Source: Cantharellus purpuraceus (taxonomy: Eukaryota > Basidiomycota > Agaricomycetes > Cantharellales > Hydnaceae). Taken from it: DNA of 64,000 nucleotides. The DNA is taken from positions 1 to 64,000 of the forward strand of contig JALBUN010000040.1 of NCBI GenBank assembly GCA_025174535.1, written 5' to 3'. Both the position numbers and the translations under genes were made by a program. The notes below the pieces were generated by a model. The model saw only the letters and a program-made list of their open reading frames with translations, searched no databases and was not told the DNA's origin. This document shows positions 1 to 51,114 of the stretch, one piece after another; positions within the stretch are counted from its first letter, which is position 1; each line of letters opens with the position of its first letter.

Positions 1-458
1 AAAGATTTCGGATGTGTGAAATTTTCATAAATATAAACATATATTCTATATTTTAATAAACTTTAAAAGATAAGATATTTGGTTGAGATGAACATAATCA
101 TTTACATGGATATAATAGGAATGTATGTATTAATATAATTGGTATTATATAGGGTATTTAGATATACAAATACCAGGTGGGGATTAAAGATAGTTCAAAT
201 TATGTTACAAGTATTGTATAAGAAAGAATCAATGGTATTTGGATGTTCCCTCAAGAGAGTTGCCACCACTAAATGGGGAAAAAACAGTTATTTTTGAGAA
301 TTATGCCAAAATATCACAATATGTTTTAATCTAGTATATTGTGTAAAATTTGAGAATCACATTGAAATATGAAAATAAGTTTTAATCTAAGTGTATTGTG
401 TAAAATTTGAGGAAAATAGGTTGTATATACGTATTTGTTGTATTTCTGAATAAGCGTC
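1..458 (+). repeat. Left terminal direct repeat (5' part cut off by window)
   Basis: AT-rich sequence that looks identical to 6564-7021. It ends in AATAAGCGTC, followed by TTA (459-461), exactly as the right copy does. By comparison with the right copy, the first 107 bases are missing before the window. It contains an internal short repeat, 'gtgtaaaatttgag', near 351 and 398. No ORF of note; it may carry the element's promoter. Confidence 0.9.
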
Positions 459-992
459 TTAGGAAAGTCTTGGAAACAAACACCTTTAATGCAGTGAAGC
501 TATTTTTAAAACAAAGTAACTTAGTTAGGGCATAGTGGTAGATAATCTTGTTCTAACATAAGACTGTATGACTATCCCTCGTACTTTAGGGTGCAATACC
601 ATCAGATTTTCCATCCAAAGTGGTGGAAAATAATGATCCTGCTCCATACTAGTATATAACTCTGTTAATTTCTGTTCCAGAAGTGTGCCATCAGTACATC
701 TGTATAAAGTCAGTGATTGGAACCTTGATATTTATAAAGGAACTTACCTCAGAAACAAATCATGGAGGGATCCTATCCGAGATATATACCAATCATTAAC
801 TCTTCTATCAAACTCTATCTTGCATTGAAGCATAAAAGAGAGCATCTTCATAATGCTTATAACATAAAAACATAATAATCATTTTATTAAGAAAGCAAGA
901 TGTATATATCTACTGCCTATACAAAATATCAAATGTTCAGAAAAAAATGATTTTTATATTTTTTCATTTCTGTTTTATAAGCAGAGAGGGAT
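459..992. other. Leader region of the element, no clear gene
   Basis: This stretch between the left repeat and the first ORF has no long reading frame. Bases 521-607 look vaguely like a tRNA-derived module: a box-A-like TAGGGCATAGTGGTAGA and a box-B-like GGGTGCAATACC about 50 bases later. The cloverleaf cannot be folded convincingly, so I do not call a tRNA. A small inverted pair, TTTTCCA/TGGAAAA, sits near 607-630. The rest is AT-rich and presumably 5' untranslated or promoter sequence for the coiled-coil ORF at 993. Confidence 0.4.
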
Positions 993-2066
993 TTGAAAAT
1001 GCCACAAATCTTTGAAGATATAAAAGCAATCAAAGGCTGGATAAGTGACAATGATGCACTGATAAAAGCTATGGCAAGTCAAATGGAAGTAAAAGATGAA
1101 TTAATATCTGATCTTATAAATGTCAAGTCTTGGATGAGTGAAAAGGATAGGCAGATCACTATGCTTGAACAACAGGTTAATTCCCAGAGTCAGGAAATTC
1201 AGGTGCTTAAGAAACAGGTTGAGGAAAAAAATACAATTATAACTACTTTGACAGACAGGAAAGAGAATTTAGATGAATGGATGAGTGAAATGAATGATAT
1301 TGTATCAGGATTTGGAACAGATATTCATAAACTTCAGAGACAGGTTAATAGGTGTGTTGCCACAATATCAGACCATGGAACAGATATTCATCAACAGGTC
1401 AATACACATAATGCAGAGAATCCTATATTGGACCATAGAACAGATATTCATAAACTTCAGAAACAGGTTAATAGATGTATTGCAACAATATCAGACATTG
1501 TGGAATGGAAATCTGAAGTGCATGAGTGGATTGTAGAAACAGATGATACTGTAGTGGAACTTGGAACAGACATTAATAAACTTCAGAAACAGGGTGATAA
1601 ATATAAAGCAATAATATCTGAGATTGTTGACTGGAAATTTGATATGAATCACTGGGCTGGAAAACAAGAACAGGAGGTAACAAGGTTACAGGAAAATGGT
1701 ACCAGAAAGGTGACATTTAAGATAGTGAAAAGAGGTGTAGACTATATACTTATAGACTCAGATCAGTCTTGTAGACTAAATAGAATGGAATTATTCATAA
1801 ATGGTGAGCCTAGAAAACTATCTACAATATATACTAGGAAGAATGAAATGTCATCATATGACGTAGATGGTAATAGGATTAATTTTCAAACATGGAAGCA
1901 AGGAATGACTCAAGGTTCAAGGCATCAAGAAAAAAGGTCTAACGAACAATCTCAAACTCCTAGTTCAAGGCATCAAGAAAAAAGGTCTAAGGAACGATCT
2001 GATTCAGACTCTGATCAATCTCAAATTCCTAGTTCAAGAAAAAGATGTAGAGGGAGAACCCAGTAA
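993..2066 (+). CDS. Coiled-coil protein with internal repeats and basic tail
   Basis: A 357-residue ORF of no recognised family. Residues 1-230 are predicted-looking coiled coil, rich in Glu, Lys, Gln and Ile with heptad spacing. A unit of the form GTDIHKLQ(K/R)QVNRC-(V/I)ATISD recurs about four times between residues 105 and 205, so the coiled coil grew by tandem duplication. Residues 235-300 look globular (KVTFKIVKRGVDYILIDSD). The last 50 residues are basic and Ser/Arg-rich, with a repeated SSRHQEKRS motif suggestive of a nuclear localisation or nucleic-acid-binding tail. It is the first ORF of the element and reads in the same direction as the transposase. By analogy it could be an accessory DNA-binding or structural (gag-like) protein; that is inference only. 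Confidence 0.7.
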   Translation: MKMPQIFEDIKAIKGWISDNDALIKAMASQMEVKDELISDLINVKSWMSEKDRQITMLEQQVNSQSQEIQVLKKQVEEKNTIITTLTDRKENLDEWMSEMNDIVSGFGTDIHKLQRQVNRCVATISDHGTDIHQQVNTHNAENPILDHRTDIHKLQKQVNRCIATISDIVEWKSEVHEWIVETDDTVVELGTDINKLQKQGDKYKAIISEIVDWKFDMNHWAGKQEQEVTRLQENGTRKVTFKIVKRGVDYILIDSDQSCRLNRMELFINGEPRKLSTIYTRKNEMSSYDVDGNRINFQTWKQGMTQGSRHQEKRSNEQSQTPSSRHQEKRSKERSDSDSDQSQIPSSRKRCRGRTQ

Positions 2067-2102
2067 TGTAAGCCTCCGAAGACATAGGATACAAGGCATT
2101 CC

Positions 2103-2330
2103 ATGCTTCTGACAAGGTCACCTTGGAGTGAATGGCTGTCCATGAGCACTTGGATCACATCATTAGACTGCTCAAGGACAACGATTCAATTATCTGGTAC
2201 ACCGTGCCGCTGCAAAGTCTCACCTACTGTCTGCTCAGTAAGTGCATCATTATCAACCCTCACAGCCAAAAGGCTGTCCTTTGATAATGTGATCAAACTG
2301 CTCCTGACAAGGTGACCTTCCATCCGATGT
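2103..2330. other. GC-richer structured segment with hairpin
   Basis: This segment is noticeably less AT-rich than the rest of the element. It is bracketed by near-palindromes: TGACAAGGTCACCTTGG near 2110-2126 and TGACAAGGTGACCTTCC near 2304-2320. Inside, 2248-2289 can fold as a hairpin: outer stem CATTATCAA/TTGATAATG, inner stem ACAGCC/GGCTGT, loop AAAA. A 70-codon ORF (2103-2315) crosses it but has no recognisable feature and is probably incidental. The segment could be a cis-acting site, a structured RNA or a small insertion. It lies just after the coiled-coil ORF stop. Confidence 0.45.
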
Positions 2331-2626
2331 CATTATCATGATATGATAATATCCAATCGGCTGGTACACCTATTTAGCTATGCAGCAAAGAATTTGGAAT
2401 GAAAGACTGGCAAGATAGGAAACAAGGAACTGGTGAAAGGACAGGAAATTCTGTATGGGACTTTGTTGTAGTATTCAGAACGAGTGCATGCATCTGGCTA
2501 TTGACAACTTTAGAAAATATATATAATTCAATTTATAAATATTAGATAAAAATATGGACATTCTGCTCTTCAGAACTATGCACATATCTAGTAAATAAAT
2601 TTTATATATCCTTCTTTATTGACATC

Positions 2627-3118
2627 ATGGGTAAAGATAAGAAGTGCAATGATTGGAGTTCTCATGATCTTTGGGATTATGGTATAATGGTTGACACACA
2701 ATGGACTAAACAGTTTTTTGAGACAGATTTTAGAGATATTACTTTAGATACTGATGATGAGATCCTCAGTTTTGATTACAAAAAAGATGATGTGAAATGT
2801 TTAAAGGAGTCTTCAAGAAAATTTTTACATACTTAGATAAGGAAGAATAAGGGAAAAAGTGCTTTAGAGGAAATGACAATACCTTGCATTCAAACATCGA
2901 GAAAAGTCCCCCAGTTTTACCTAGTAACTGTTACAAGAGAGCTTGATCATGCTATCACAGAAGGGTTGTTTTCAGAAGTGATAACAAATGTAAGGTGTTG
3001 TTTTCCTGTAACAGTAACAGGTATGAAACATATTAATAGTAGAAAGAATGTTCTACAGTGTTTTGAAGCATTTAAGAAGTTTGTAGATATACTTGATAGG
3101 AAATTAGATGAGAAATAA
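2627..3118 (+). pseudogene. Small unknown ORF interrupted by in-frame TAG
   Basis: Two ORFs in the same frame, 2627-2836 (69 residues, acidic, Trp/Asp-rich N-terminus) and 2873-3118 (81 residues), are separated only by TAG at 2834-2836. Read through, they make about 163 residues. I do not recognise the family. The second half has hydrophobic/aromatic periodicity (QFYLVTVTRELDHAI) and a C-terminal helix (CFEAFKKFVDILDRKLDEK). It may be one broken gene, two small genes, or one gene with a stop-containing intron, but no good GT-AG pair brackets the stop. AT-rich codon use matches the other ORFs of the element. Confidence 0.4.
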
Positions 3119-3156
3119 TGAGTTTTGAAAATTAATATATAATAACCAGAGACACC

Positions 3157-3336
3157 ATGTTGAATATACCCGAGATTGGTGATAAGGTATCATTTATCAA
3201 TGCAAGAACACAAATGACAGTGACAGGTATTGTTACATTAGTAACTGGCACTTTGTCAGATGACACTTTGCTAATAACTGTTACTTATGATGACAATGAG
3301 ATTCAGCTACCACTACGTGCACTACAACAAGTATAA
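3157..3336 (+). CDS. Tiny beta-rich protein, unknown
   Basis: A 59-codon ORF beginning ATGTTGAATATACCC. The product starts MLNIPEIGDKVSF and continues with alternating Val/Thr/Ile stretches, resembling a small SH3- or KOW-like beta barrel (GDKVSFINA...VTGIVTLV). The family is not identified and the barrel idea is only from the residue pattern. It lies 38 bases after the previous ORF on the same strand, inside the mobile element. A start 20 bases after a TATAATA-like string is compatible with expression but proves nothing. Confidence 0.4.
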   Translation: MLNIPEIGDKVSFINARTQMTVTGIVTLVTGTLSDDTLLITVTYDDNEIQLPLRALQQV

Positions 3337-3401
3337 GATAAATCAGATAAGTGAATATGCAATATTTTTATTCACTCAAATGAAGGCATGTGTGGTGATA
3401 G

Positions 3402-3611
3402 TGAAAAATTCAAATTACTTGGAAGTGCAATCATATAACTACTACATCTGTAGTTACAGATTGTAAGGATATTAAATGTCCTAAGAGCTCTGAACATTCA
3501 AAAAATACTCATCATGATACTAATGGTACTTATTGTTGTGTGAACAAAAGTTCAAATCTTGAAATTATCCAAGTGAAAATAGATGAAAAATGTTGTGAGT
3601 GTAGAAACTAG
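3402..3611 (+). other. Cys-rich open frame without a start codon
   Basis: An open frame of about 69 codons ending TAG at 3609-3611. It encodes a Cys-rich stretch (WKC..., DCKDIKC, YCCV, KCCEC) with two His-rich spots, as in small zinc-binding domains. There is no ATG near its beginning. It could be a downstream exon, although no splice from the 3157 ORF keeps the frame, or a decayed fragment. It ends 19 bases before the stop of the oppositely oriented gene at 3630. Confidence 0.25.
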
Positions 3612-3629
3612 GACTTTTAAATCAACTCC

Positions 3630-4265
3630 TTATGAGGATTCTTTGAACATCTGATTTCTTATACTTTGGAATATAATGTCAATAGCATTAGAACACTCTT
3701 CAAACTGAGCTTCTATGCTGTATCCAGAGGAAGGATATACAACAATTGAAACACCCTGATTGTTATTGGTGGTTTCATATAATTTTAACCTACCATCCTT
3801 AGTTATGATCATACCATAGATTGTGATTTTACTTTTCTTGAAAACTCTCTGCTGTTGTTTCAATGCAACAACCATTGATGTAACCAAATTGTTATACACA
3901 TCACAGTTCTTACAAGTTTCTCCAGCAATAGAAATATCACACTTCTTGCCAGTTTCTCTAGCAATAGAAATATTACAACTAGGCAGATTATCCTGTTGCA
4001 TGGTTTGCAGACTTGACATACAATGATTTTGTTGAATCCAGGTTGAATTACTTATTTCATTGCCCTTTTCAATCATCTTATTGTACAGTGCTTCTGGTGT
4101 TTTATCTCTTTCCTGAGAAACCGATCCAGCTGGAAAGAAGTCCTTTGGGGGATTTCTTAATCTGAATTTTATGTAGATGGTGTCAGAGTCTATATACAAA
4201 GGATTTTCATCATCCTCTGGTTCTTTTTTAACAAAGACAGTAGATATTTTACGAACAGACAACAT
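3630..4265 (-). CDS. Divergently transcribed unknown protein of the element
   Basis: A 211-residue ORF on the strand opposite the transposase, not recognised. The N-terminus (MLSVRKISTVFVKKEPEDDE) has an acidic patch with a sumoylation-like VKKEPED context. Residues 90-125 hold a duplicated Cys unit (C-NISIARETGKK-C-DISIAGETCKN-C). The C-terminal 80 residues look folded (KITIYGMIITKDGRLKLYE, then GVSIVVYPSSGYSIEAQFEE). It shares a 96-base intergenic space with the transposase start at 4362, so the two are probably driven by one bidirectional promoter. A second ORF partnering the transposase is typical of PIF/Harbinger elements, where it is a Myb-like protein, but I see no Myb/SANT pattern here. 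Confidence 0.65.
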   Translation of the reverse strand: MLSVRKISTVFVKKEPEDDENPLYIDSDTIYIKFRLRNPPKDFFPAGSVSQERDKTPEALYNKMIEKGNEISNSTWIQQNHCMSSLQTMQQDNLPSCNISIARETGKKCDISIAGETCKNCDVYNNLVTSMVVALKQQQRVFKKSKITIYGMIITKDGRLKLYETTNNNQGVSIVVYPSSGYSIEAQFEECSNAIDIIFQSIRNQMFKESS

Positions 4266-4361
4266 AGCTTCATAGAATAAATATTATTTAATTTAAAATT
4301 CAATTATCAAAAAAATGAACATATTTTTGTTTTACTGTAATATAAGAGTATCTTAGTCAAA
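4266..4361. promoter_or_regulatory. Putative bidirectional promoter
   Basis: A 96-base AT-rich gap between the start codons of the divergent ORFs at 4265 (-) and 4362 (+). TATTATTTAATTT and TAATATAAGAG occur inside and could act as TATA-like elements on either strand. Assignment rests on gene orientation and composition only. Confidence 0.4.
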
Positions 4362-5696
4362 ATGCCCTCAGACCAGCAAAAACGCACAAAGGAGCAAAAA
4401 GAGAAAGAAGAAAAAGAGCTTCAGCAACTTAAAATGTGGAATGATCAAAGGGACAGAGCATATAATAAGTTGATGGACAATCATTGGAATTTTCTATACA
4501 CAAAGTGGCCTGTCTTAGAACACAAAAAATATCATAGAACAAAACTAAAAGATATGAATGATATGGATGATGTAAAAAAAGTAGTATATAACAAGCTTGG
4601 ACCAATACCAGTATTTTTCTTTCTTGTGGTATTGTTTTCAGTTGAAGAACATTCTACACCTTATAGAGAGATAGAAAAAGGCTTGTTAGTACTATATCAT
4701 CTACTCAAAGGTCCTACTTATGAAGAAATAGGAAATTTCATGCCATCAAGTAGCTTTTATGATGTTCATAAGGAATTTTATGGTCGTCTGCATCATCTTA
4801 ACTTTGATCTAGATAAACAAGTTACTGATTCACTGCGTACAATGTTCTCAAATATAATAATAAGGATATTATCAGCTCTTATAAAGAATCCTCCAAAAAT
4901 GGAATCAGTGACATTACTTCTTGATGGTCATGATACAAGAGGAATTTTGATTGGATCGGCATCTGAAGAGGGGTACTCATATAAATTTAAAAAGGCAGGA
5001 TTTCGTACTCAAGTATGCATTGACATTAATCAAATGGTTCTATTCACCTCACCTTCATTGGCATGTAAACTAAATCCTGATGCAAAAATGTTTGTAGAGA
5101 TGGCTGTATGGAATAAAATAGATAAGAATGATCAGATAGGTTTTGATGGAGCTTATCCATCTGCTATTCTAGAAGTAGTAAAGGCAAGTATATTAAAGCC
5201 TAAGAACTTCTTTTATCCTTTTCGGAAGCCAAAAATTGTTGAACTTAAACCTGAAGAAAAGATTTTTAATAAGAAGTTTGGTGCCTTTCGTTCAACAGTA
5301 GAAGCATTCTTTGGAGGGTTTGCAAGATTGTTTGAAAAATTTGATAATAAGAGATCTATTAGAACTACAAATCCTGCTGTCTTTAATCTGGAATTAAAGG
5401 TAGCATGTCTATTATGGAATATTAAGAAATTTGTAGAACTACGTAAGATCAAACCATCCCCTTATCATGAAAAATGGTGTGAACAATATTTTGATTACCC
5501 TGAGGAAGAGGACCCAGATATTGAGCCACCCAGATCATTACTGGAAAGAGCAGAAGATGTTGACAAGATGACTCAATCTCAACAACGACTATTAGAAAGA
5601 TGTGAGTATGATGTGGAGATGCATTATGAGACTGAAAATGAAGTAGAACAAATAATAAGGCAAAGAAAAAGGAAAGTACGTAGAATATTTAGTTAA
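4362..5696 (+). CDS. DDE transposase, DDE_4 (PIF/Harbinger-like)
   Basis: A 444-residue ORF. After a Lys/Glu-rich N-terminus, residues about 115-145 form a helix-turn-helix-like stretch (PTYEEIGNFMPSSSFYDVHK). The catalytic core follows: LLLDGHDTR with Asp188, IGFDGAYPSA with Asp262, and FRSTVEAFFGGFARLF with Glu314. The D-D-E spacing (74 and 52 residues) and the E-FFG-F-RLF end match the DDE_4/IS5-like nucleases of PIF/Harbinger transposons, which make 3-bp target duplications. That agrees with the 3-bp duplication of the related short element at 40899. The annotated frame ends inside a chromodomain that continues in the +1 frame. Expected job: cutting and joining the inverted ends of the element. 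The family call rests on motifs; an alignment could move it to a neighbouring DDE family. Confidence 0.8.
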   Translation: MPSDQQKRTKEQKEKEEKELQQLKMWNDQRDRAYNKLMDNHWNFLYTKWPVLEHKKYHRTKLKDMNDMDDVKKVVYNKLGPIPVFFFLVVLFSVEEHSTPYREIEKGLLVLYHLLKGPTYEEIGNFMPSSSFYDVHKEFYGRLHHLNFDLDKQVTDSLRTMFSNIIIRILSALIKNPPKMESVTLLLDGHDTRGILIGSASEEGYSYKFKKAGFRTQVCIDINQMVLFTSPSLACKLNPDAKMFVEMAVWNKIDKNDQIGFDGAYPSAILEVVKASILKPKNFFYPFRKPKIVELKPEEKIFNKKFGAFRSTVEAFFGGFARLFEKFDNKRSIRTTNPAVFNLELKVACLLWNIKKFVELRKIKPSPYHEKWCEQYFDYPEEEDPDIEPPRSLLERAEDVDKMTQSQQRLLERCEYDVEMHYETENEVEQIIRQRKRKVRRIFS

Positions 5697-5823
5697 ATGG
5701 AAATGTTATGCAGAGAAAACTTGGGAAGCAACATCAAGCTTTAAATCTACAGAATGTATTAAAGAGTATTGGAAAGACAATAGTAATAATATTATTGTAT
5801 ACCTATGCTACATTCAACTGTAA
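5674..5823 (+). other. Chromodomain continuation in the +1 frame
   Basis: The transposase tail (EVEQIIRQRKRK) is the first strand of a chromodomain. The remainder reads in the +1 frame from 5674: KYVEYLVKWKCYAEKTWEA, then SSF and IKEYW, with the expected aromatic cage positions Tyr, Trp and Trp. The switch falls in the A-rich run AAGAAAAAGGAAAG (5663-5676). It may be a disabling indel, a sequencing error or programmed frameshifting. The frame then stops at 5821-5823, unless a 77-nt intron (5797-5873, GTATAC...TATAG) is removed, which would join it in frame to the ORF starting at 5880. Chromodomains target integrases of chromoviruses to heterochromatin; a similar role here is inference. Confidence 0.7.
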
Positions 5824-5879
5824 ATTTTTTTTCCCAGAATAAAATTGAATATTTGTATGTTTTATACTTATAGGTATCT

Positions 5880-6377
5880 ATGGAGACTGATCCATTACTG
5901 AAACAGCGTCTCAATCAACAGTTTTACCAAAAGCCTTTTCACAGCAATCCACACCAGCTAGCTAATTGTACAACGTGTGACTGGTACCCCTTTGGGCAGT
6001 ATCTGGACCGTTCATATGCTGAAGGTGAAGTGTTCCAGCTTTCAAAGTATCCTCATATCAAATATGTATTTCTTGGTCTACAACCTGATAAAATAGGCTA
6101 TAATGAAAGTGATCCTATTTTTGTAGCAGAATTTGCAGGTTTTCTGAATAAAACCAACAGATTTGTAAGTGGTTCTGATCCAACCTCTGGATATGCACAC
6201 ATTATAACCACACATGTGAATCAGGCGTTTGTTAGACAGCCAGGCCCAGATATAAATAGGCAGAAACTATATCTTGGCCGTACAGTGCACATGATCTACA
6301 TAACTAGTATTGGTATACTATTGGCTTTGCTGTGTTGGACAGTGTCCAGACATACCAATGAAGATAAGAATTCATAA
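5880..6377 (+). CDS. Unknown ORF with C-terminal membrane segment
   Basis: A 165-residue ORF, not recognised. Residues 20-45 include Cys/His spacing (PHQLANCTTCDWYPFGQYL), the centre is mixed alpha/beta, and residues 138-158 form one strong transmembrane helix (MIYITSIGILLALLCWTVS) followed by a short charged tail, a tail-anchor topology. It may be a separate gene or the last exon of the transposase. Splicing 5797-5873 joins the chromodomain frame to ...VSMETDPLL with no stop. A tail anchor on a transposase would be odd, so a separate protein remains the simpler reading. It ends 79 bases before the right terminal repeat. Confidence 0.55.
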   Translation: METDPLLKQRLNQQFYQKPFHSNPHQLANCTTCDWYPFGQYLDRSYAEGEVFQLSKYPHIKYVFLGLQPDKIGYNESDPIFVAEFAGFLNKTNRFVSGSDPTSGYAHIITTHVNQAFVRQPGPDINRQKLYLGRTVHMIYITSIGILLALLCWTVSRHTNEDKNS

Positions 6378-6456
6378 TGGCATGTCTAAATCTATGGAGA
6401 AAGAAGCTTGTTGATGATATAAGGTGATGATTTTTGTTTTTAAAATGACCCCCCTA

Positions 6457-7021
6457 GACGCTTGTTCGGAATCATGTCAGTATACAATATTCTGATGTAT
6501 AGGAGATATACATCAGGATTTCAATGATACATAAAGCCAGGGAGTTACAATTTGGATATCTTAAAAGATTTCGGATGTGTGAAATTTTCATAAATATAAA
6601 CATATATTCTATATTTTAATAAACTTTAAAAGATAAGATATTTGGTTGAGATGAACATAATCATTTACATGGATATAATAGGAATGTATGTATTAATATA
6701 ATTGGTATTATATAGGGTATTTAGATATACAAATACCAGGTGGGGATTAAAGATAGTTCAAATTATGTTACAAGTATTGTATAAGAAAGAATCAATGGTA
6801 TTTGGATGTTCCCTCAAGAGAGTTGCCACCACTAAATGGGGAAAAAACAGTTATTTTTGAGAATTATGCCAAAATATCACAATATGTTTTAATCTAGTAT
6901 ATTGTGTAAAATTTGAGAATCACATTGAAATATGAAAATAAGTTTTAATCTAAGTGTATTGTGTAAAATTTGAGGAAAATAGGTTGTATATACGTATTTG
7001 TTGTATTTCTGAATAAGCGTC
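6457..7021 (+). repeat. Right terminal direct repeat with inverted ends
   Basis: A complete 565-bp unit beginning GACGCTTGTTCGGAA and ending TTCTGAATAAGCGTC, so it has its own imperfect inverted ends. It is flanked by CTA on the inner side and TTA on the outer side. The last 458 bases match 1-458 without visible difference. A diverged inverted copy (527 bp) lies alone at 40899-41425, showing that this unit can move as a short non-autonomous element. Confidence 0.9.
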
Positions 7022-7024
7022 TTA

Positions 7025-8066
7025 TTGTTGAATGTAAAGTGAACGGACACACCACTAAGGCTTTATTAGATAGCAGTTCCCTATCAGTTTCATTTCCACT
7101 ACATTAGTAGATCAATTAAAATTAAAATCTGCTCACCTTGCAAAGCCAATTACTTGTCAAATGGTGGCTTCAGGATCACATACAATGATCACCAGTTCAG
7201 TCAAACCTCTCTTTGCCTATCAGAGTATAGAGGAAATATGGCATTTTGACATGATTAATCTGGAAAATCACAATGTCATACTAGGGACACCATTCCTGTC
7301 GCAACATAAAATTATATTAGCATTCAACCCAGCTAAGATAGCTGTTGGAAGCCAAAAAGCCTTACCGATAAGTGGTGAAGGCATTGCAAAAATTTCCAGT
7401 CTCATAGCAGACCTATTAGAAGAAGGGTTACAGACTTTGCATGAACAACTTAGAATGGAGTCAATGGACCTTTGTGCTGCTGCTGAAGACATGCTGTTAC
7501 CACCACTGCATGCAATCAATCATAAGATTCCAATTATGTATAAGAAAAAGGTATACTCTTACCATCCCTCATGATGCCCGGAAGCACTTAAACCCCTGTG
7601 GAGGGCAAAAAGAGATAAATACCTTAAATCTGGACATTGGGAATATGCTGTGGGACACAACACTATTCCCATGTTGCTCATTAATAAAAAACTGGCACCT
7701 GATGGAACTCCACATTTGAGAACTGTTTTTGATGATAGGGAGCATAATGTGAATATGAAGAAAATGGCTAGTCCATTACCAGGTCAGCAAGCCATTTCAA
7801 TGAATGTTTGTAGGCACCCTTACCGATCTCTCATAGATAGAAAGGACACCTATGAATCATGCTGAGTAGACCCTGGTGATGTTTGGAAAACATTATTTAA
7901 CAAAGCAGATGGAACAATGATTAGCAATGTGATGCAGCAAGGTGATTGCAATGCACCAATTACATACCAAACATTAATGAACCACCTTTTCAGCGCATAC
8001 ATTGGTGTGTTCATGGACGTCTACCTGGATGATATCGTTATCTACTCAGATACAATAAAAGATCAC
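7025..8066 (+). pseudogene. Ty3/Gypsy pol fragment: protease and reverse transcriptase
   Basis: A decayed gypsy polyprotein read across frames. Retropepsin: VNGHTTKALLDSSS near 7035-7070 (the family has LLDSGS), then DMINLENHNVILGTPFLSQHK near 7250-7310. Reverse transcriptase: TPHLRTVFDDREHNVNMKKMASPLP near 7710-7790, SLIDRKDTYE near 7830, VMQQGDCNAPITYQ near 7930 and the catalytic FMDVYLDDIVIYSD near 8010-8050. Stops or frameshifts occur near 7105, 7572 and 7863. The reading ends abruptly at 8067, where another LTR element begins. The upstream gag is hidden behind the insertion of the element at 1-7024. Nonfunctional. Confidence 0.85.
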
Positions 8067-8571
8067 TGTTACACACTAGGTCCGATTGGGGGTCAGAGAT
8101 TGGGTCAGAGGTTTGGTCAGAGTTGGAGAAGGAGTCAGGGTATGTCGTGGGGGTCTGAACAGACTTGGCTTCAGCTTATGTGCTGCACCCTCACTAATAC
8201 TGGTGTCTGAGATTTTGGAGACTGAGTACAACTTAAAGAGTTAGGATTGGACTTAGGAACTAGGTGTGATTTGATATTCAAACTGGGGAATGAAGTCCCC
8301 AGTCAGGCAACTTAAATACATATTTGAAATCTAATAATAATTACTCTGGGGATAGGTCTCCAAGGCTGACGGCCTTACATGAGTATGTCTGGGTTCCTAT
8401 GGTGATGCTGATGCATTAATTGGAACCAGAGACAGATGGGCAGAATTGGCAGTGACAATCGGACAGGTAAATGGAGACGTGACGGTTTCCAAATGGAGTA
8501 TAGATTTCATATGCGTGGGGATCTGAGTGGATTGGACAGGGATCAGGGCGTTAATGAATATAGTCATAACA
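8067..8571 (+). repeat. LTR, family 1 (5' LTR of an element inserted in gypsy RT)
   Basis: About 505 bp running from TGTTACACACTAGGTCCG to AATATAGTCATAACA, with TGTTA/CATAACA inverted ends. The same LTR occurs inverted at 16274-16554 (truncated), 40233-40725 and 43132-43731. It interrupts the gypsy RT right after the YLDD region. The five bases before it, ATCAC, would be the target duplication, but the matching copy is not found downstream because the 3' side is rearranged. Immediately after it, GTATCTCTCCATTTAAGG is shared with the copy at 40233 and is probably the primer-binding region. Confidence 0.8.
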
Positions 8572-8688: not shown

Positions 8689-10031
8689 ATGATTGAGGTC
8701 TTATCCCTAACAATGTCAAACCCTTTGGCAAGCATGAGTGTGGCTGAGCTTGAGCAGTTGCTCTTGGCCCAATGGAAGGAAGAGGAAGAGGAGCGGAGAT
8801 GGAAAGAGGAGGAGGCAGAACGGAGACAGAAGGAGGAGGAGGCGAAATGGAGATGGAAGGAGGAGGAGGAGTGGAGACAAAAGGAGGAGGAGGAGCAGAG
8901 ACGGAAGGAGGAGGAGGAGGAGCGGAGACGGAAGGAGGAGGAGGAGGAGGAGGAGCAGAGACAGAAGGAGGAGGAGGAGGATCAGAGACGGAAGAAGGAG
9001 GAGGAGGAGCAGAGATGGAAGGAGGTGGCTGAGATGGAATGGAGAAGGAAGGAGGAGGAAGTGAAAGCCAAGAGGGCCTGCAGACTGAAGGAAGTGGAGG
9101 AGCAGGCACATGAGCTAGAAGCTGCCATGGAGGTAGAGGAGGAGGTGACTGGGGCAGGGGCGACCAGTCACCCAGGAAGTCCGAGTGTGCCAATACAGGC
9201 AGGGACCCCCGAGGTCACCATCATCTCCATTACATGGATGGAGTCAACCCATCCGACAACTGTCCTTATGGGGACTCACCATCACATCTGTGGTCATGGC
9301 TGTTATTTGCGGTGGGTGCAGCTGAGGAAGATGAAATGGCAGAGATGGAGAGGGCAGAGGTGGAAGCAGATCCCGATGCCAATATGGAGCTTGATGCAAA
9401 TGTGGAGCCTGAGGCGGGTGTGGATGTCAGGATGGATGCGGAGCTGGATCCGAATTGCTACGAGGAGATGGCTTGGGTAGCCGTGGTTGAAGTTCAAAAA
9501 AGGGTGGAGCTTTATGCTGCTACCACCAAGAAAAACCTCAAGGTCATGGTTTTTTCATTGAAGGTGCACCTGAGTGCTGATATGGAGAAGCAGGAGAAGG
9601 AGGAGGAGAGGGAACACTTGGAGGCCACATTAAGAAGGAGTGGACCACCCAAGGCTCTGGCTCCAATGGAGCCATTTGGCGGGCCCGGTCTAATTTGCAA
9701 CTTGTGTCGTGACACAGGCGTGGAGTGGGTGTGGCCTACCAGCCCAACTCACCACCTTTGGTCCTGCAATTGTTGTTGGGGTTGGAAAGGAGGGTGTAGG
9801 ATTGATGGAAAGTTTGATCCCCGGAGTCAGAGTGTCAAGCCCAGGCTAGTGGTACAAGGAGGGGTGGAGAAAGAATCAGAAGGTCATCTGACCAAAAAGT
9901 GGCGGACGGAGACGGGTGCTGTGGCAGCCAGGGGTAGCGGTGTCAGGTCAGAAGGAGCAACGACCAGCGCAGGTATGGGTGCGTTGTATGGGAACTGGTT
10001 ATCCCTTAAAAGATCTTGTTTAAAGTCCTGA
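8689..10031 (+). pseudogene. Glu-rich gag-like ORF with Cys cluster, frameshifted
   Basis: Starting at ATG 8689, the ORF reads MIEVLSLTMSNPLASMSVAELEQLL, then about 130 residues of Glu/Arg/Lys repeats of the type KEEEE-(Q/R)RRK, encoded by a GGAGGAGGA microsatellite (8780-9060). Near 9240-9300 the sense reading passes to another frame (ORF 9234-10031). That frame includes a Cys cluster, ICNLCRDTG then CNCCWGWKGGC, resembling a Zn2Cys6-like motif found in many Agaricomycete repeat proteins. A diverged copy of the first 55 codons is at 44130-44240. The coiled-coil plus zinc pattern suggests a gag-like nucleic-acid-binding protein; that function is inference. Opposite-strand Pro/Leu-rich ORFs here are shadows of the microsatellite. 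Confidence 0.55.
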
Positions 10032-16812: not shown

Positions 16813-17902
16813 AAAGGCATTGCTAGGGGTAGACATTATATGTTTGAACACAGTTGACACTGTGCTGTGCACTACCCAATTGTGAGAGCAAGCCATAGCT
16901 AGGGAATAACCTTCCTGGCTGTAAGATACTGTGGGGTGGTTCTGACAGCAGAATATTTCATGCTGTGAGATGTCTGAAGGTCTGTCTTGTTACTGTACTT
17001 TCTATTTCATTCTTTCTACTGTATTTCATCTGATCAGAGAGGGAGCAGCACATGTGGCACTGTCAATAGGTGGATCAGGAACTGAGAGAACATGCAACAA
17101 GTTCTGGGGCAGCCAGATGTAAGAAGCAATGTTGCACTGAGAGTGTAGAGACACAAGCTTCTGCCATGAATGGACAGAGCTGAGATGATAGAGAGAGATC
17201 CCCCTTCCTTCTATTTGTTTATCAAAGCAGTTCTTATATACAATGACAGTGGCACACAAACAAATAGTCTCCAACTAGAGAGTGTAGCTCTCTTACCACA
17301 TGTACATCTTGACCCCAAGGGATACAAGCTGAAAATTTATTCAGTTCTGAAGCAAGTGTGGTTTTCCTACCCTTTTCGCTGAGCCAACGGATAAAATGAA
17401 AGACAGCCCTGCATGCCGACACGCAAACTGTATGATTGTGTCAGTACCATTAGTGACTTCTTGAACTGGGTCATCATGACGAGACGGATCACCCGGCCGT
17501 GGGCACCCGTGGAAGTGACCACAGCTGAGACTACGTGAGAGTTGAGGTGGTTGTTGTGGGAATGCATGCGGGTGTACATCTGGAGACACGTGGATGGCGC
17601 GGCTGACGTACGGCCGCGATTTCCAGCTGTCCGGAAGGGACATTGACAAGTGCGGACAGATGGACTGGGTGGGCGCCTAAGTGAGATGCAGATGGAAGTG
17701 CGGACAGATGCGCGGGGTGCGCTGAAAGAATGTGGAGCATTGGATGCGGCATGACGGCGGCCGAGTGAGGTGGCAGCCGTGCATTGCTGCCAAGCAAAAG
17801 CGGCTGAAAGAAAGGCGACGGGTGCCGAGTTTGAGTGTCCGACAGATACGGGCGCTCCTGGGAGGAAGGGAATACTTGACATTGACCACGACGGTGCGCA
17901 GG
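16813..17902. other. Region upstream of the KRE6-like gene
   Basis: From 16813 to about 17390 I see no repeat or gene I can name. Composition changes sharply near 17400-17480, from AT-rich repeat-like DNA to GC-rich host DNA. Bases 17480-17902 are GC-rich and should hold the promoter and 5' leader of the gene at 17903. An upstream in-frame ATG at 17732 extends that ORF by 57 codons of basic, non-conserved sequence, probably not translated. Long minus-strand ORFs at 17367-18131 are shadows of the GC-rich coding exon. Confidence 0.5.
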
Positions 17903-20900
17903 ATGATGACGGGCGCAGCGACTGACCCGTTTGCGTCGCGATCGACGACGCCGCACAGCACGGAGAGCGAGCCGAGCCGGAGCAACAGCACGGGGAGTGG
18001 GAGCAGCAGCCATGTACTCCAGTCCGATTCCCACACGCACCCCGCCCACGCCACGCCCACGCCAGCGTCGCCCACGGCGGCGGCGAACGTGCATGAGCCG
18101 CTGCTGGCGTCAAGCTCCCGCCACCCGTCATACTATGTGTCGTCCCCGCTCAACCCCAACGTCACCAGCCGCCCCGAGTCTCGCGGGAGCATGTCTCGCA
18201 TCGCGTCAGACGAGTCGTACACGCCCCTGGGCGTAGGGGCGGGGGGCTACCCGCTCATGGGCCAGCGAGACACCCTCTCCAGCCAGCGTGGCAGCATGCT
18301 CCTCTACCGCCTCGCATCAGACGCCGATCCATGGGACGACGACATGTCCCCGCCCACCCGCTTCCCCCCCCCAGACAATAACCACCACCACCACCACCCA
18401 CCCCACCCCCACCCCCGCTTCAGCCTCGCGTCAGACTCGGGCCAGTCCGCGTTCAGTATTGGCTCCGACTCAAAATACCCCGTCGCCAACGAAAAGCCAG
18501 GCATGGGCAAGGGCGCCTTTTTGCCCTATGCCTACGACCCCACCTCCGACCAGTCCAGCCCCCCCGATGCAGACGACATTCTCCACGACCCCAGCACCCT
18601 CGACCACGACGAGGGGCGGGTCTCTGGCCTCAACCTCCGCGGCATCGTCAACGTCTTTGTCGTCTGCCTCGTCATCTTTGGCGTCATCTGTCTCTTCACC
18701 CTCTACCCCATCCTCACCTTTATCCACAACAACTCACGCAATCTCGCCATTGACAATAATGTCCAGGTCAACGGCACGGGCCAGGTCGCCGTCCTCCCCA
18801 ACCTGCCCCTCCTCATAGACAAGGACACCCCTGATAACGTCAAGTCCCGCACGGGCTGGGACGGCAACGACTATGAGCTCGTCTTTTCCGACGAATTCAC
18901 AACAGAAGGCCGCTCGTTTTACCCCGGCGACGACCCCTTTTGGGAAGCCGTCGACCTCTGGTACGGCGCCACAGAAGACATGGAGTGGTATGATCCCGGT
19001 ACGCACGCCGCAGTGTCTCTGGGCCTGCGCTCATTTGCCCCCCACAGGCCAGATCACCACGACCAATGGCAGTCTCCGGATCCGCATTGAGCAGGCTGAT
19101 CCAGCGAGCAACCACGGCCTGAATTACAAGTCGGGCATGCTGCAGAGCTGGAACAAGTTTTGCTTTACGGGGGGCTATATCGAAGGTGCGTGTGTGCATG
19201 CCGTGTCGCGCACGGCGTGGTCACTGAGGCTGGGGCTCAGCGTCCGTGTCGTTCCCTGGGTCGAGCAGCAACGTTGCCGGCTACGTGAGTATGGCACTGC
19301 TGGCTCGTGTTATGCACTAACGGGTATCTAGTGGCCTGGGGTGTGGCTGATGGGCAATCTGGGACGACCGGGGTATGGCGCGTCTACGGATGGCTTGTGG
19401 CCATACTCGTGCGTCGATCGTCGTTCTTGCCGTGTGGTCATGCTCATGTGCGTGAATTAGGTACACGGCGTGCGATACGGGCACGTTTCCCAATCAGACC
19501 ACCAAGGACAAACAGGGCCCCGCGGCGGCGTTGCATACCGATTGGGGACGGTCAAAGTATAATTTCGAGTTGAGCTGGCTTCCGGGACAGAGAGCATCGT
19601 GAGTGTTTTATCATTGGCGGCTGCACGCTATGCTATGCTGCTACGCTATACTATGCCTCCCTGCTGCCAACGCTCACCCCTTGCGCTTCCCGCAGCGCCT
19701 GCACATGCCCCAACAATGAACACCCTGGCCCCTCCGTCGCGGTAGGCCGCGGCGCGCCCGAGATCGACGTTTTAGAAGCACAAAAGAACAAGCTGGGCAC
19801 GGGCGGCAAGGTCTCGCAGAGTGCGCAGTTTGCGCCGTTTAACCATGACTATGTGTCCCAGAATGGGACAAACGACGTGACGTTTTTTAATCCGGCGATT
19901 ACGGCGCAGAATACGTATCAAGGGAGTGCGTTGTGAGTGGATATTTGTTCGCCCTGATGTCGGTTGTGTCATTGGGTGTGTTGGGTGGACAGGCAGCAGG
20001 CTGTGACGGCGTTGACGACGGTTCCTGATCGTGCGTATGCGGGTACCGGCAGGGAGTATATCTCCTTTGGTGTGTGGTGTTTCTCTCGTGTTCTCTTGGG
20101 TGTTTTACTCACATTGGTGCGTCCTGCGTTTGCGTTACGTGTCTGCGTCCCGCGTGGTAGGCTTTGAGTATTTCGGGGACCCCAACGACGCATCAAAAGG
20201 GTATATTACATGGCAGGTGGACGGGACGCCGAGTTATGCTGTCAAGGCGTCGGCTGTGCCGCCTGATCCTGCCGTGGGGATTTCTCAGCGCTTGATTTCT
20301 GTAGAGCCGATGGTGCGTGTATAAAGAAAATTTGTGGTGTGGCGTGGCGTTGTGCGAGGGTGTTGGTGTTGCCGTCGGGCGTGTGTGTCTGTGCTGGAGG
20401 TTTTTCGCATTGCCTTTTTTTTTTTTGCGTTGCTGCGGCCTGGGAGTGTGGGATTGATGCTGATGGAAATGTTTTATTTTTGTGGGGGGTGTAGTCGATT
20501 ATTTTGAACTTGGGAATGTCGCGTGAGTGTTTATCCGTAACGTCCTGTTTCCCAAGACACACATTCACCACTGATGTGTGCATTTTGTGCAGAGAGTTTC
20601 CAGCCGGTGGACTTGACAGCGATGACGTTTCCGGCGGATTTGATGATCGACTATGTGCGGGTGTATCAGCAGGTGGGGAAGAAGAATTTTGGGTGTGATC
20701 CGGCGGGGTATCCGACGTCGGATTATATCAAGAGTCATCTTGAGGCGTATACGAGTGCGTGGGGAGCCCCTTTTGGTGTGCTGTGGTATGAGCTGACTGG
20801 GGCGTGTGTGTGTTTAGATCCTAATTTGACACGGTGGAGTGGGGATACGGGTACGGGGACGAATGCGGGGTTTTCGTGGCCCAAGAATTCGTTGGTGCGT

Positions 20901-37717: not shown

Positions 37718-39079
37718 ATGTCGGACGGCTACCCAAATGCCACGCTAGTTGTGCCCCGCCCCTCATCTGGTCAAGACCCTTACAATGCTGTACTGGCCCA
37801 TTCCACAATACCAAAACCACTCCCAGGCAATCATATTGTTGTCCGTGTTGATAGATTTAGCTTTTCGTCCAACAACATTACCTACCAAGCACTAGGAGAA
37901 GAGCCACATTTTCGGTGAGTGAACTCCGTCATGTGATCACTAGAAAACCATATTGAAACGGCTTTTCAGATATTTTGATTTCCACTCTGCGCCAAACACA
38001 CCAACTGTGCACGGTGTCATTCCAGTCTGGGGATTCGGCACTATTGTTGCATCAAACGTGTCCATGATCCAAGTAAATGAGCGTGTGTTTGGATACCTCG
38101 GGATGGCACGCTATCTCTCACTGCCTGTGGATGTATGCGAAAGCAATGAATTTAACTTCTACGTTCCCAGACCACATCTACCTCCAGGTAGGAGCATGAG
38201 AGGCGTTATCATTTGATCTTCTAATACCGCCCAGATCGTCGACCATACAATCAATTGACGCGTTGTTCGCGTGACAAGTTATACCATGCCAAGGAGGAGG
38301 ACCTCTCCATGCTCTATCGTCCACTCTTCTGGACATCGTTCTGGGCGGAGGACTGGCTTTTTACTGCGCCTGAAAAGCCTTACAACGGTGCTACGACCAT
38401 CCTTATATCCAGTGCAAGCGCGAAAACAGCTTTTTGCCTCGCCTACGTTATAAAGAAGCGCGATAACCCCGGTGTCAAAGTCATCGGACTTACTTCCAAA
38501 AAGAATCTCGATTTCACAAGAGGTTTAGGATTATATAGTTCTGTGTTCATGTATAGCGATGTTGAAGGTGGCCTCGGTGAGTTCAACGGTACATGGATCT
38601 ACGTTGATGTCGCAGGCAACGATGCCATCAACTCCCGTGTGTGGAAGACGCTCGGTTCGCGCGTTGTGCGAAGCGTCAGTCTCGGTGTCACTAATATCAG
38701 TCCATCCGTTAAAAGCACCTATGTCATGCCTGCGAGCGGCATCACCAAGTCGCCTACTACAAGGGCTCCCGCTGCAAGCAGTCTCGTCGAATTTTTCTTC
38801 ATGCCTGAATGGCTTGCGGAGCGTCGTCGTTCCTTTACGGCATCAGACATTTTCAAGATGCAGCAGGCAGCATGGACAGAACTCATGAGAGACTGTAGAG
38901 CATGGGTTGTGATTGAGAGGACCTGGGGCGCAGAGGAGGTGCGGCGAGCATATTCAGAGACAGTCAAGGGGCTGGTGGGTCCTGAGAAGGGGATGGTGTG
39001 GAGTCTTTGGGATGAATTGGAAGGTTCGCGCTGGGAGCAGGAACTGCTCACAAGCGAGTCAGTATTAGGGAAGCTGTGA
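37718..39079 (+). CDS. DUF2855 family protein
   Basis: Three exons: 37718-37914, 37970-38187 and 38235-39079, with introns of 55 and 47 nt (GTGAGT...TTTCAG and GTAGGA...CCCAG). The product is about 419 residues. The N-terminus IPGNH-type segment (LPGNHIVVRVDRFSFSSNNITYQALG) and VIPVWGFGTIVAS match the DUF2855 pattern, which resembles the GroES-like start of medium-chain reductases. The middle (ILISSASAKTAFCLAYVIKKR, VKVIGLTSKKNLDFTRGLGLY) looks like the nucleotide-binding half. The C-terminus has the usual FFMPEWLAERR segment. Function is unknown; a quinone-reductase-like oxidoreductase is inferred. It follows the BEACH gene on the same strand after 319 bases. Confidence 0.9.
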
Positions 39080-49933: not shown

Positions 49934-51114
49934 GATGGAGAGAAGCAGGATGTGGTGCCGGTAGAAGAACGCCTCTGCCTATCTATTTGCACCCACAGAA
50001 GGAGAAAACAATCAGGATCAGATAATCGCAAACAGGTTAGATCCACATGGGCACTGTCTCGTGACGAGTACTAGTCTCATAGAAGGCTTACGTCACGAGT
50101 TCCAGTGACGACGCGTCTTCCTCTTCCCGGCGCAAAGACGAAGCACGCTCCGATTTGAATTTTATGGGTTTAGTCCGTGTTGCTCAGGCGCTACCGGATA
50201 TGCGCGTTCAGCTACAAACACCACAGTGGTTGTACCTCTGTCCCATCCGAGTTTCTTCCGACCGTGACAGTCCGGACTCAGACAAAGGCTCCTCAGGTAC
50301 TTTAGCTTTCAAACCTCAATATAGACCAGAAAGCCAGCTGTCCAAATCTGGATGCAGGACAGAACTCTTGGACTCAACCATATAGGCTATCATATTGATT
50401 ACGCTTGTCGTGAGCCTCGTGAGCAGTGTGTTTAGCACACATCTGAAGGTATGTGTTCAGAGAAGTCCTGTGAACAGCGTCAGATGCTTTGAGAAGAGTG
50501 ATAGATAATGTCAGTCTGTCGGGCGTAGTCAGGGTCGCTGAATCTATTGCCCATCTGTTGAGATTTCCCAGCGTCAAATCTTCATTGGTAAGTGACCAGT
50601 GCATGCTGGTGTACCGATAACGCAGCGCTTGGAAGAGACTTGGAGAAACCATTGTCTCCACGGTGAACGCATATACTACCTTGGATGCTCCTGCTTCTCT
50701 TCAGCAATGGCTTCCGCCTTTACGCTTCACCCCATCTCGTACTTGCCCGCCGTCAGTCATGTTGGAACGTCGGCGCTGTCAAGCTTGAAACTGAGATACC
50801 CATGGCCGTGGCTTTGCTGAGATTGTAAGAGTCTGAATTGCAGATTGGCAGGTCCAAATCCTTTTCCCCACTTCTTCACAGGATGACTCTACCCATGTAG
50901 AATCACACTGATAATTCCGACACAGTATCAGTAGCAGCGTATTGACAAAAGGTTACAGTGTATTGACAAAAGGTTACAGTGTATTGACAAAAGGTTACAG
51001 TGTATTGACAAAAGGTTACAGTGTATTGACAAAAGGTTACAGTGTATTAGCAAGTCCTCTCGAACTGTTTAATTCACGCAATCGAGACACTTCTCTAAGA
51101 CAGCACAGATGGCT
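49934..51114. other. Intergenic, with tandem repeat
   Basis: Upstream of the PhyH-like gene and downstream of the S33 gene. A 95-codon minus ORF (50374-50661) is not recognised. The 21-bp tandem repeat at 50939-51042 is listed separately. Confidence 0.5.
50939..51042. repeat. 21-bp tandem repeat, five copies
   Basis: Five consecutive identical copies of the unit TGTATTGACAAAAGGTTACAG (the first lacks its leading bases). They are followed by TGTATTAGC, a broken sixth. The unit length is a multiple of three, so it reads TKGYSVL repeatedly in one frame, but no gene context supports translation. It lies 70 bases beyond the stop of the S33 peptidase gene. Confidence 0.95.

Follow-up and report, generated by a model that had tools for sequence, protein, structure and literature searches.

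A composite-like DNA transposon was identified at the beginning of contig JALBUN010000040.1 of the fungus Cantharellus purpuraceus (assembly GCA_025174535.1; 40.15 Mb in 50 contigs). It consists of two direct copies of a 565-bp repeat (R) that enclose an interior of 6-7 kb (INT) with a DDE transposase. INT probably spreads for the most part by being copied into R copies already resident in the genome, which doubles the R that is entered. In the following, R-INT-R is called a unit, contigs are given C-numbers, and the loci that were read are given L-numbers. The window is the whole stretch of DNA under analysis, i.e., the first 64,000 of the 64,317 bases of this contig (C40). The features described below lie on its plus strand unless stated otherwise.

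The first-pass annotation had pointed to two identical direct repeats, and this was confirmed: the 461 visible bases at window positions 1-461 and 6564-7024 are the same, with a spacing of 6563 bp. The repeat is, however, longer than the 461 bp first noticed. As determined by comparison of copies, R is 565 bp long; the complete 3′ R of the window occupies positions 6457-7021, starts with GACGCTTGTTCGG and finishes with CTGAAYAAGCGTC. The ~107 bases ahead of the visible repeat (6455-6561), first counted as interior, recur before other 5′ copies and thus belong to R. The 5′ R (1-458) is cut by the contig end, since the window begins at base 1 of C40, and lacks its first 107 bases. What is missing there, along with the left flank, was recovered from the terminal part of contig C9 (locus L027), whose overlap with the beginning of C40 is 100% identical. 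INT spans positions 462-6453 and is joined to the 5′ R by the inner junction TTA (459-461) and to the 3′ R by CTA (6454-6456). The termini of R are GAC...GTC, and its inverted ends of ~15 bp (6457-6471 and 7007-7021) match at 87% in the window copy. The target site duplication (TSD) of the window unit is TTA, found on the right at 7022-7024 and on the left at the C9 contig end.

R also occurs alone. It was searched for with the 461 visible bases (best 40 of 680 candidates scored) and with the whole R of four units (best 40 of 689-690 candidates scored in each search). Among the loci read, 22 of the 23 solo R with both ends recognisable carried a perfect 3-bp TSD (chance per site 0.016); this sample was picked by likeness to the window R, and the count leaves out copies that are truncated or have more diverged ends. 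In these 22 copies the preceding base was C in 15 and the following base was G in 15. TSDs of the TNA type were found at 10 of the 22 solo R and at four of the seven units with a matching TSD. Because 22 of 23 solo copies carry a 3-bp TSD, R is a mobile unit in its own right, similar to a miniature inverted-repeat transposable element (MITE). The earlier suggestion of two MITE-like units around a cargo was supported. As a separate observation, a solo R (L029, C45:1386535) and the R of a unit on C6 (L021) have an identical right flank beginning at the same base beside R; their left flanks differ and the two R are 19 substitutions apart.

Complete units are numerous. INT was searched for with its left half (best 40 of 73 candidates scored) and with a right-half query containing ~107 bases of R (best 40 of 647), and the two junctions were used as further queries (best 40 of 645 and best 40 of 654 candidates scored). 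The R-INT junctions were unbroken in the 40 + 40 matches listed, and at least 27 of the 40 listed left junctions paired with a listed right junction on the same strand, 6.2-7.5 kb away. Together with five further units read at both ends, these 27 pairs give at least 32 R-INT-R units, so the predicted existence of several full copies with a repeat at both ends was confirmed. Genome-wide, 58 exact interior starts were counted, 56 of them with the exact R-TTA junction (the remaining two lie on C8 and C36), and a control pattern gave 0. The outcomes named beforehand as refuting, i.e., a single copy, other ends of the interior or a reverse transcriptase (RT) within it, are thus absent: copies are numerous, the interior ORFs scanned contain no RT, and these 56 starts join R at the same base. 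Neighbouring units with one common R form arrays on C44, on C45 (1742k-1757k) and on C38. Contig C44 itself (19.1 kb) is mostly such an array, with three interior starts, the last of which is cut by the contig end.

Matching outer TSDs were found in seven of the eight units read at both ends, namely C40/C9 (TTA), C7 (TTA), C9b (TAA), C6 (ATA), C47 (TAT), C5 (TAA) and C3 (TTT); the eighth, at C45:161k, has ATA versus TAA as outer flanks and no TSD match. The joined flanks of the seven units were compared with the loci read, and for three of them (C6, C7 and C3) empty sites were recognised in other copies of the invaded repeats, at 83-97% identity. Solo R and R-INT-R are alike in having 3-bp TSDs and the same flanking preference, and the borders between R and INT are fixed.

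The two R of a unit were then compared with those of other units by pairwise alignment over R alone in the eight units with both R read. The two R are identical in six of the eight: C40, C7, C9b, C6 and C47 over 565-566 bp, and C5 over the 473 bp read. The pair of C3 differs by one substitution and three single-base gaps over 472 positions. The pair of C45, the sole unit without a matching TSD, differs by nine substitutions over 473. The mean difference of R between units is 2.28%, and none of the 40,320 possible pairings apart from the true one gives so low a difference. The expectation that repeats would be more alike within than between copies was thereby verified. The identity is specific to the copy: the two sites that separate C7 from C5 are the same in both of their R, as are the three that separate C9b from C6. 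Among further units whose two R were scored against one query R, the scores were equal in C11 and C1:1081k and within 1 bit in C24 and C1:1095k, equal scores being no proof of identity. In the C44 array the R are not identical: the second and third differ by two substitutions and a gap, and the first scores lower.

INT behaves differently from R. Its difference between units is 0.45% in the 5′ 1.55 kb (seven units), compared with 2.4% in the R of those units, and 0.33% in the 3′ 3.1 kb (eight rows, two of them from one array), compared with 2.3% in the matching R. The rank correlation between R and INT distances is weak, at 0.18 (p 0.43) and 0.43 (p 0.02), respectively. With C40 left aside, variable sites number 18/1547 in INT versus 25/550 in R (p 1e-5) and, in the second set, 22/3074 versus 26/565 (p 5e-10), where the p-values for these and the following counts assume independent sites. 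The contrast extends to non-coding INT (its first 500 bp, before ORF1), with 7/499 versus 25/550 variable sites without C40 (p 0.003) and 7/499 versus 35/550 with C40 included (p 3e-5). Judged by the positions of variable columns, the step in divergence sits at the R-INT junction itself. At the 5′ junction, columns -6, -11 and -36 vary on the R side and none of the first 60 interior columns does. At the 3′ junction, one interior column varies (-6) and R columns vary from +37 onward. The units of C40 and C45 illustrate the difference: 1 of 1554 sites separates their INT, compared with 17 of 565 sites in R. A tree computed from 44 R rows, which is biased by the choice of solos, places the two R of C40 beside a solo R (99/88) and apart from the main clade of composite R. 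Searches with the R of C7 and C47 listed, among the nearest relatives, R copies outside any known unit. A faster clock in R cannot explain the contrast, because it would also have driven apart the two R within a unit. R does not simply travel with INT, and the histories of the two differ, because R is diverse between units, INT is uniform and their distances agree poorly.

These data are best accommodated if the transposase mobilises R by itself and at times an entire unit, while INT gains sites mostly by a recombination-type copying into an R already resident. A cut at a resident R might, for example, be repaired with INT copied from another unit and with the second R taken from the resident locus. 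The resident R would thereby be converted into a unit whose two R both match it, and recombination between the two R may reverse the doubling and leave a solo R. We prefer this entry of INT with doubling of R, which we deduce from copies within one assembly, because it explains both the diversity of R between units and its identity within a unit. There is about an even chance that INT is a homing-like passenger that leaves its own repeats behind, inserts a copy of itself into solo R elements already present and duplicates the 565-bp element that it entered. The earlier proposal that identical repeats require copying or homogenisation at each jump does not hold as stated: identity within a copy is not accompanied by a repeat that is simply carried along with INT, and the R and INT histories differ.

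Several observations weigh against this explanation. Both R were read in only eight of the at least 32 units, and in three further units (C26, C1:3226k and C1:3849k) the two R scored unequally against one query R. R and INT are not fully independent, because 19 of the 21 composite R rows in the tree of 44 rows share one clade, together with two solos. Furthermore, the 5′ R is one homopolymer A shorter than the 3′ R in C3, C37 and two C1 units, and perhaps in C26; the difference was seen in the letters for both R of C3 and for the 5′ R of C37 and of one C1 unit, and elsewhere it follows from match length. Such a common difference speaks for movement of whole units without renewed homogenising, or for repeated slippage. 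Because four, perhaps five, units share it, whole-unit movement and entry of INT into R may both occur. Among these observations we also list the inner junctions, TTA versus CTA, which show no fresh 3-bp duplication; they count against a purely transposase-made cointegrate. As these borders appear inherited, the recombination route is favoured over such a cointegrate.

It is also conceivable, though unlikely, that the whole unit moves from its outer ends, by cut-and-paste or replicatively, and that gene conversion evens its two R after insertion. The outer TSDs and empty sites speak for it, as do the four or five units that keep the 5′/3′ length difference, and the pairs C5/C7, C6/C9b and C1d/C3 show R and INT distances of similar size. 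However, R should then be about as uniform as INT, and it is ~3-7 times more diverse between units; the C45 unit, which has no TSD match, has retained two different R, so conversion was not fast there. We regard as more doubtful still the replicative integration at a new site of a circle of one R and INT, released by R-R recombination, as in an IS26 translocatable unit. This would account for the identical R pairs, the outer TSDs, the solo R and the tandem arrays with a common R. Nevertheless, R would be expected to travel with INT and to show a like diversity, unlike the data, unless circles often swap their R.

Direct repeats identical within copies, and the existence of solo repeats, would also suit a non-autonomous long terminal repeat (LTR) retrotransposon that acquired a transposon gene and is copied by RT in trans. 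We consider this very improbable in view of the 3-bp TSD, the ~15-bp inverted ends that are not TG...CA, the antisense open reading frame (ORF), the discordance of R and INT, and the lack of an RT domain in the interior ORFs scanned. The chance that assembly or polishing made the repeats alike appears slighter again. The window copy is indeed split across two contigs and the array runs to the end of contig C44, but polishing would pull sequences to one consensus. The identity found here is instead particular to each copy, since C7 and C5, and likewise C6 and C9b, show matching differences in their two R.

The coding capacity of INT was analysed by scanning seven interior ORFs with Pfam. One DDE transposase was found, and RT, RNase H and recombinase were found in none of the seven, in agreement with the first-pass annotation. 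The transposase (4362-5696, 444 aa) stays below the Pfam cut-off of 24.8 bits for PF13359 (DDE_4): the window copy scored 20.0 bits and a sister copy 23.0, compared with 32.9-40.0 bits for four relatives that were scanned and are 36-52% identical. Residues D188 and D262 are invariant and E314 is nearly invariant among 34 aligned sequences. The structure predicted by AlphaFold2 (mean predicted local distance difference test score, pLDDT, 87) resembles DDE transposases. PF13359 and the chromodomain PF00385 are both present in 52 of the 78 relatives of the transposase; named relatives of this type come from Apophysomyces, Circinella, Rhizomucor, Mortierella, Actinomortierella and Thamnidium. In the window, a chromodomain coding stretch (5659-5805; PF00385 24.5 bits, cut-off 25.1) lies behind the transposase stop in a different frame. 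It is out of frame in all eight distinct copies read (the window copy and L020-L026), despite the single-protein form in those 52 relatives, which would mean a fixed loss or recoding.

ORF1 (981-2066), which contains a tandem repeat of ~60 bp, encodes a coiled-coil-like protein and matches no Pfam family above its cut-off. ORF2 (2546-3118) is interrupted in the window copy (96 + 93 aa). Its region is 279 bp longer in L014-L016, and in L014 (L014:3693-4460) it is open, with 267 aa, 256 of them from its ATG. Six relatives of ORF2 were found, the one named being from the mushroom Ephemerocybe angulata. Among the listed INT matches spanning the ORF2 site, 27 are without the extra 279 bp that keep ORF2 open and 10 carry additional sequence. 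Copies in which ORF2 is not open thus still spread. On the minus strand, an ORF of 217 aa from stop to stop (3630-4271; 222 aa in sister copies) matched no Pfam family above cut-off. The 167-aa ORF at 5874-6377 has, by eye, a hydrophobic stretch near its C-terminus, and a homologue search gave none at E <= 0.001. In the other interior ORFs scanned, Pfam revealed no Myb/SANT domain. No nuclease family, including His-Me finger, was matched in the interior ORFs scanned, several of which match nothing, and a C/DxxH motif was not found between D262 and E314 of the window transposase.

The window unit is inserted in a decayed gypsy-type retroelement with protease RVP_2 and reverse transcriptase RVT_1 (7025-8210; upstream part at the C9 end), and the target reads ...CCAAAAGCAG[TTA]TTGTTGAATG.... 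Adjoining this retroelement, at 8774-9059, is a 27-bp tandem repeat encoding a Glu/Arg/Lys-rich stretch. Elsewhere in the window there is a tandem array with a 21-bp unit (50935-51048; 5.4 copies, 98% matches), as well as host-like genes of the SKN1/KRE6 glucan-synthesis family (17726-19087), in keeping with a fungal source, and the DUF2855 family (38225-39076).

The first-pass annotation had expected such a build to be unusual in a fungus. A precedent exists in KolobokP, a lineage of Kolobok DNA transposons of animals, for which the available text describes a transposase region between two long direct repeats (Kojima and Bao 2022, PMC9587614). According to the same text, the repeats are ~450 or 660 bp long with their own short inverted ends, the elements occur in seven animal phyla, the TSD is 3-5 bp, and the Kolobok transposase is mostly accompanied by a His-Me nuclease; transposases of the superfamily carry a C/DxxH motif between the second D and the last E (PMC9587614). 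One route proposed by these authors is that a circle of repeat and interior integrates at a solo repeat (PMC9587614). As far as this source describes KolobokP, the element reported here shares with it the long direct repeats, 565 bp in this case, that have short inverted ends of their own, the internal DDE transposase, the solo repeats with short TSDs and the tandem units with a common repeat. It differs in its fungal host, in a PF13359-matching transposase related to chromodomain transposases of Mucoromycota, in having no nuclease recognised by Pfam in the interior ORFs scanned, and in lacking the C/DxxH motif. The precedent thus comes from animals and from another superfamily. PMC9587614, in its available parts, does not compare the repeats of one copy with each other and with those of other copies.

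The assignment to PIF/Harbinger, DDE_4-type, is uncertain. The TSD of PIF/Harbinger (PHIS) elements is 3 bp, classically TNA, in the available texts (PMC12477816, PMC12730594). The weak PF13359 match, the DDE transposase and the 3-bp TSD are like PIF/Harbinger; terminal direct repeats, TSDs beyond TNA and the absence of a recognised Myb/SANT protein in the ORFs scanned are unlike it. Membership is unsupported, with PF13359 below its cut-off, TNA at 10 of 22 solos and no Myb/SANT partner recognised in the ORFs scanned. Similarity to bacterial pseudo-composite transposons of the IS26/IS6 type is seen in the segment between directly repeated mobile elements and in a circle of one element and the segment as a likely intermediate. 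In IS26/IS6 the transposase lies inside the repeat, whereas here it lies in the middle segment. LTR retrotransposons have TSDs of 4-6 bp and TG...CA ends; they resemble our element in direct repeats identical within a copy and in solo repeats, and they differ from it in that here no RT was found, the TSD is 3 bp, the inverted ends are ~15 bp, and the R and INT histories differ. A literature search, with Repbase Reports and most subscription papers outside it, found no such build for a Harbinger-like or a fungal element. Taken together, the observation made at first was partly confirmed and its interpretation partly supported.

The element combines the KolobokP-type build with a different family of transposase and a fungal host, and it adds evidence on the origin of the repeat pair. 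A second case with another transposase and in another kingdom would mean more than one origin of the build and call for a general explanation. The diverse repeats and the nearly uniform interior make the regaining of two identical repeats testable by comparison of strains. If the proposed copying into resident R is true, an older and diverse population of mini-transposons would provide the docking sites of a transposase unit that is young and nearly uniform.

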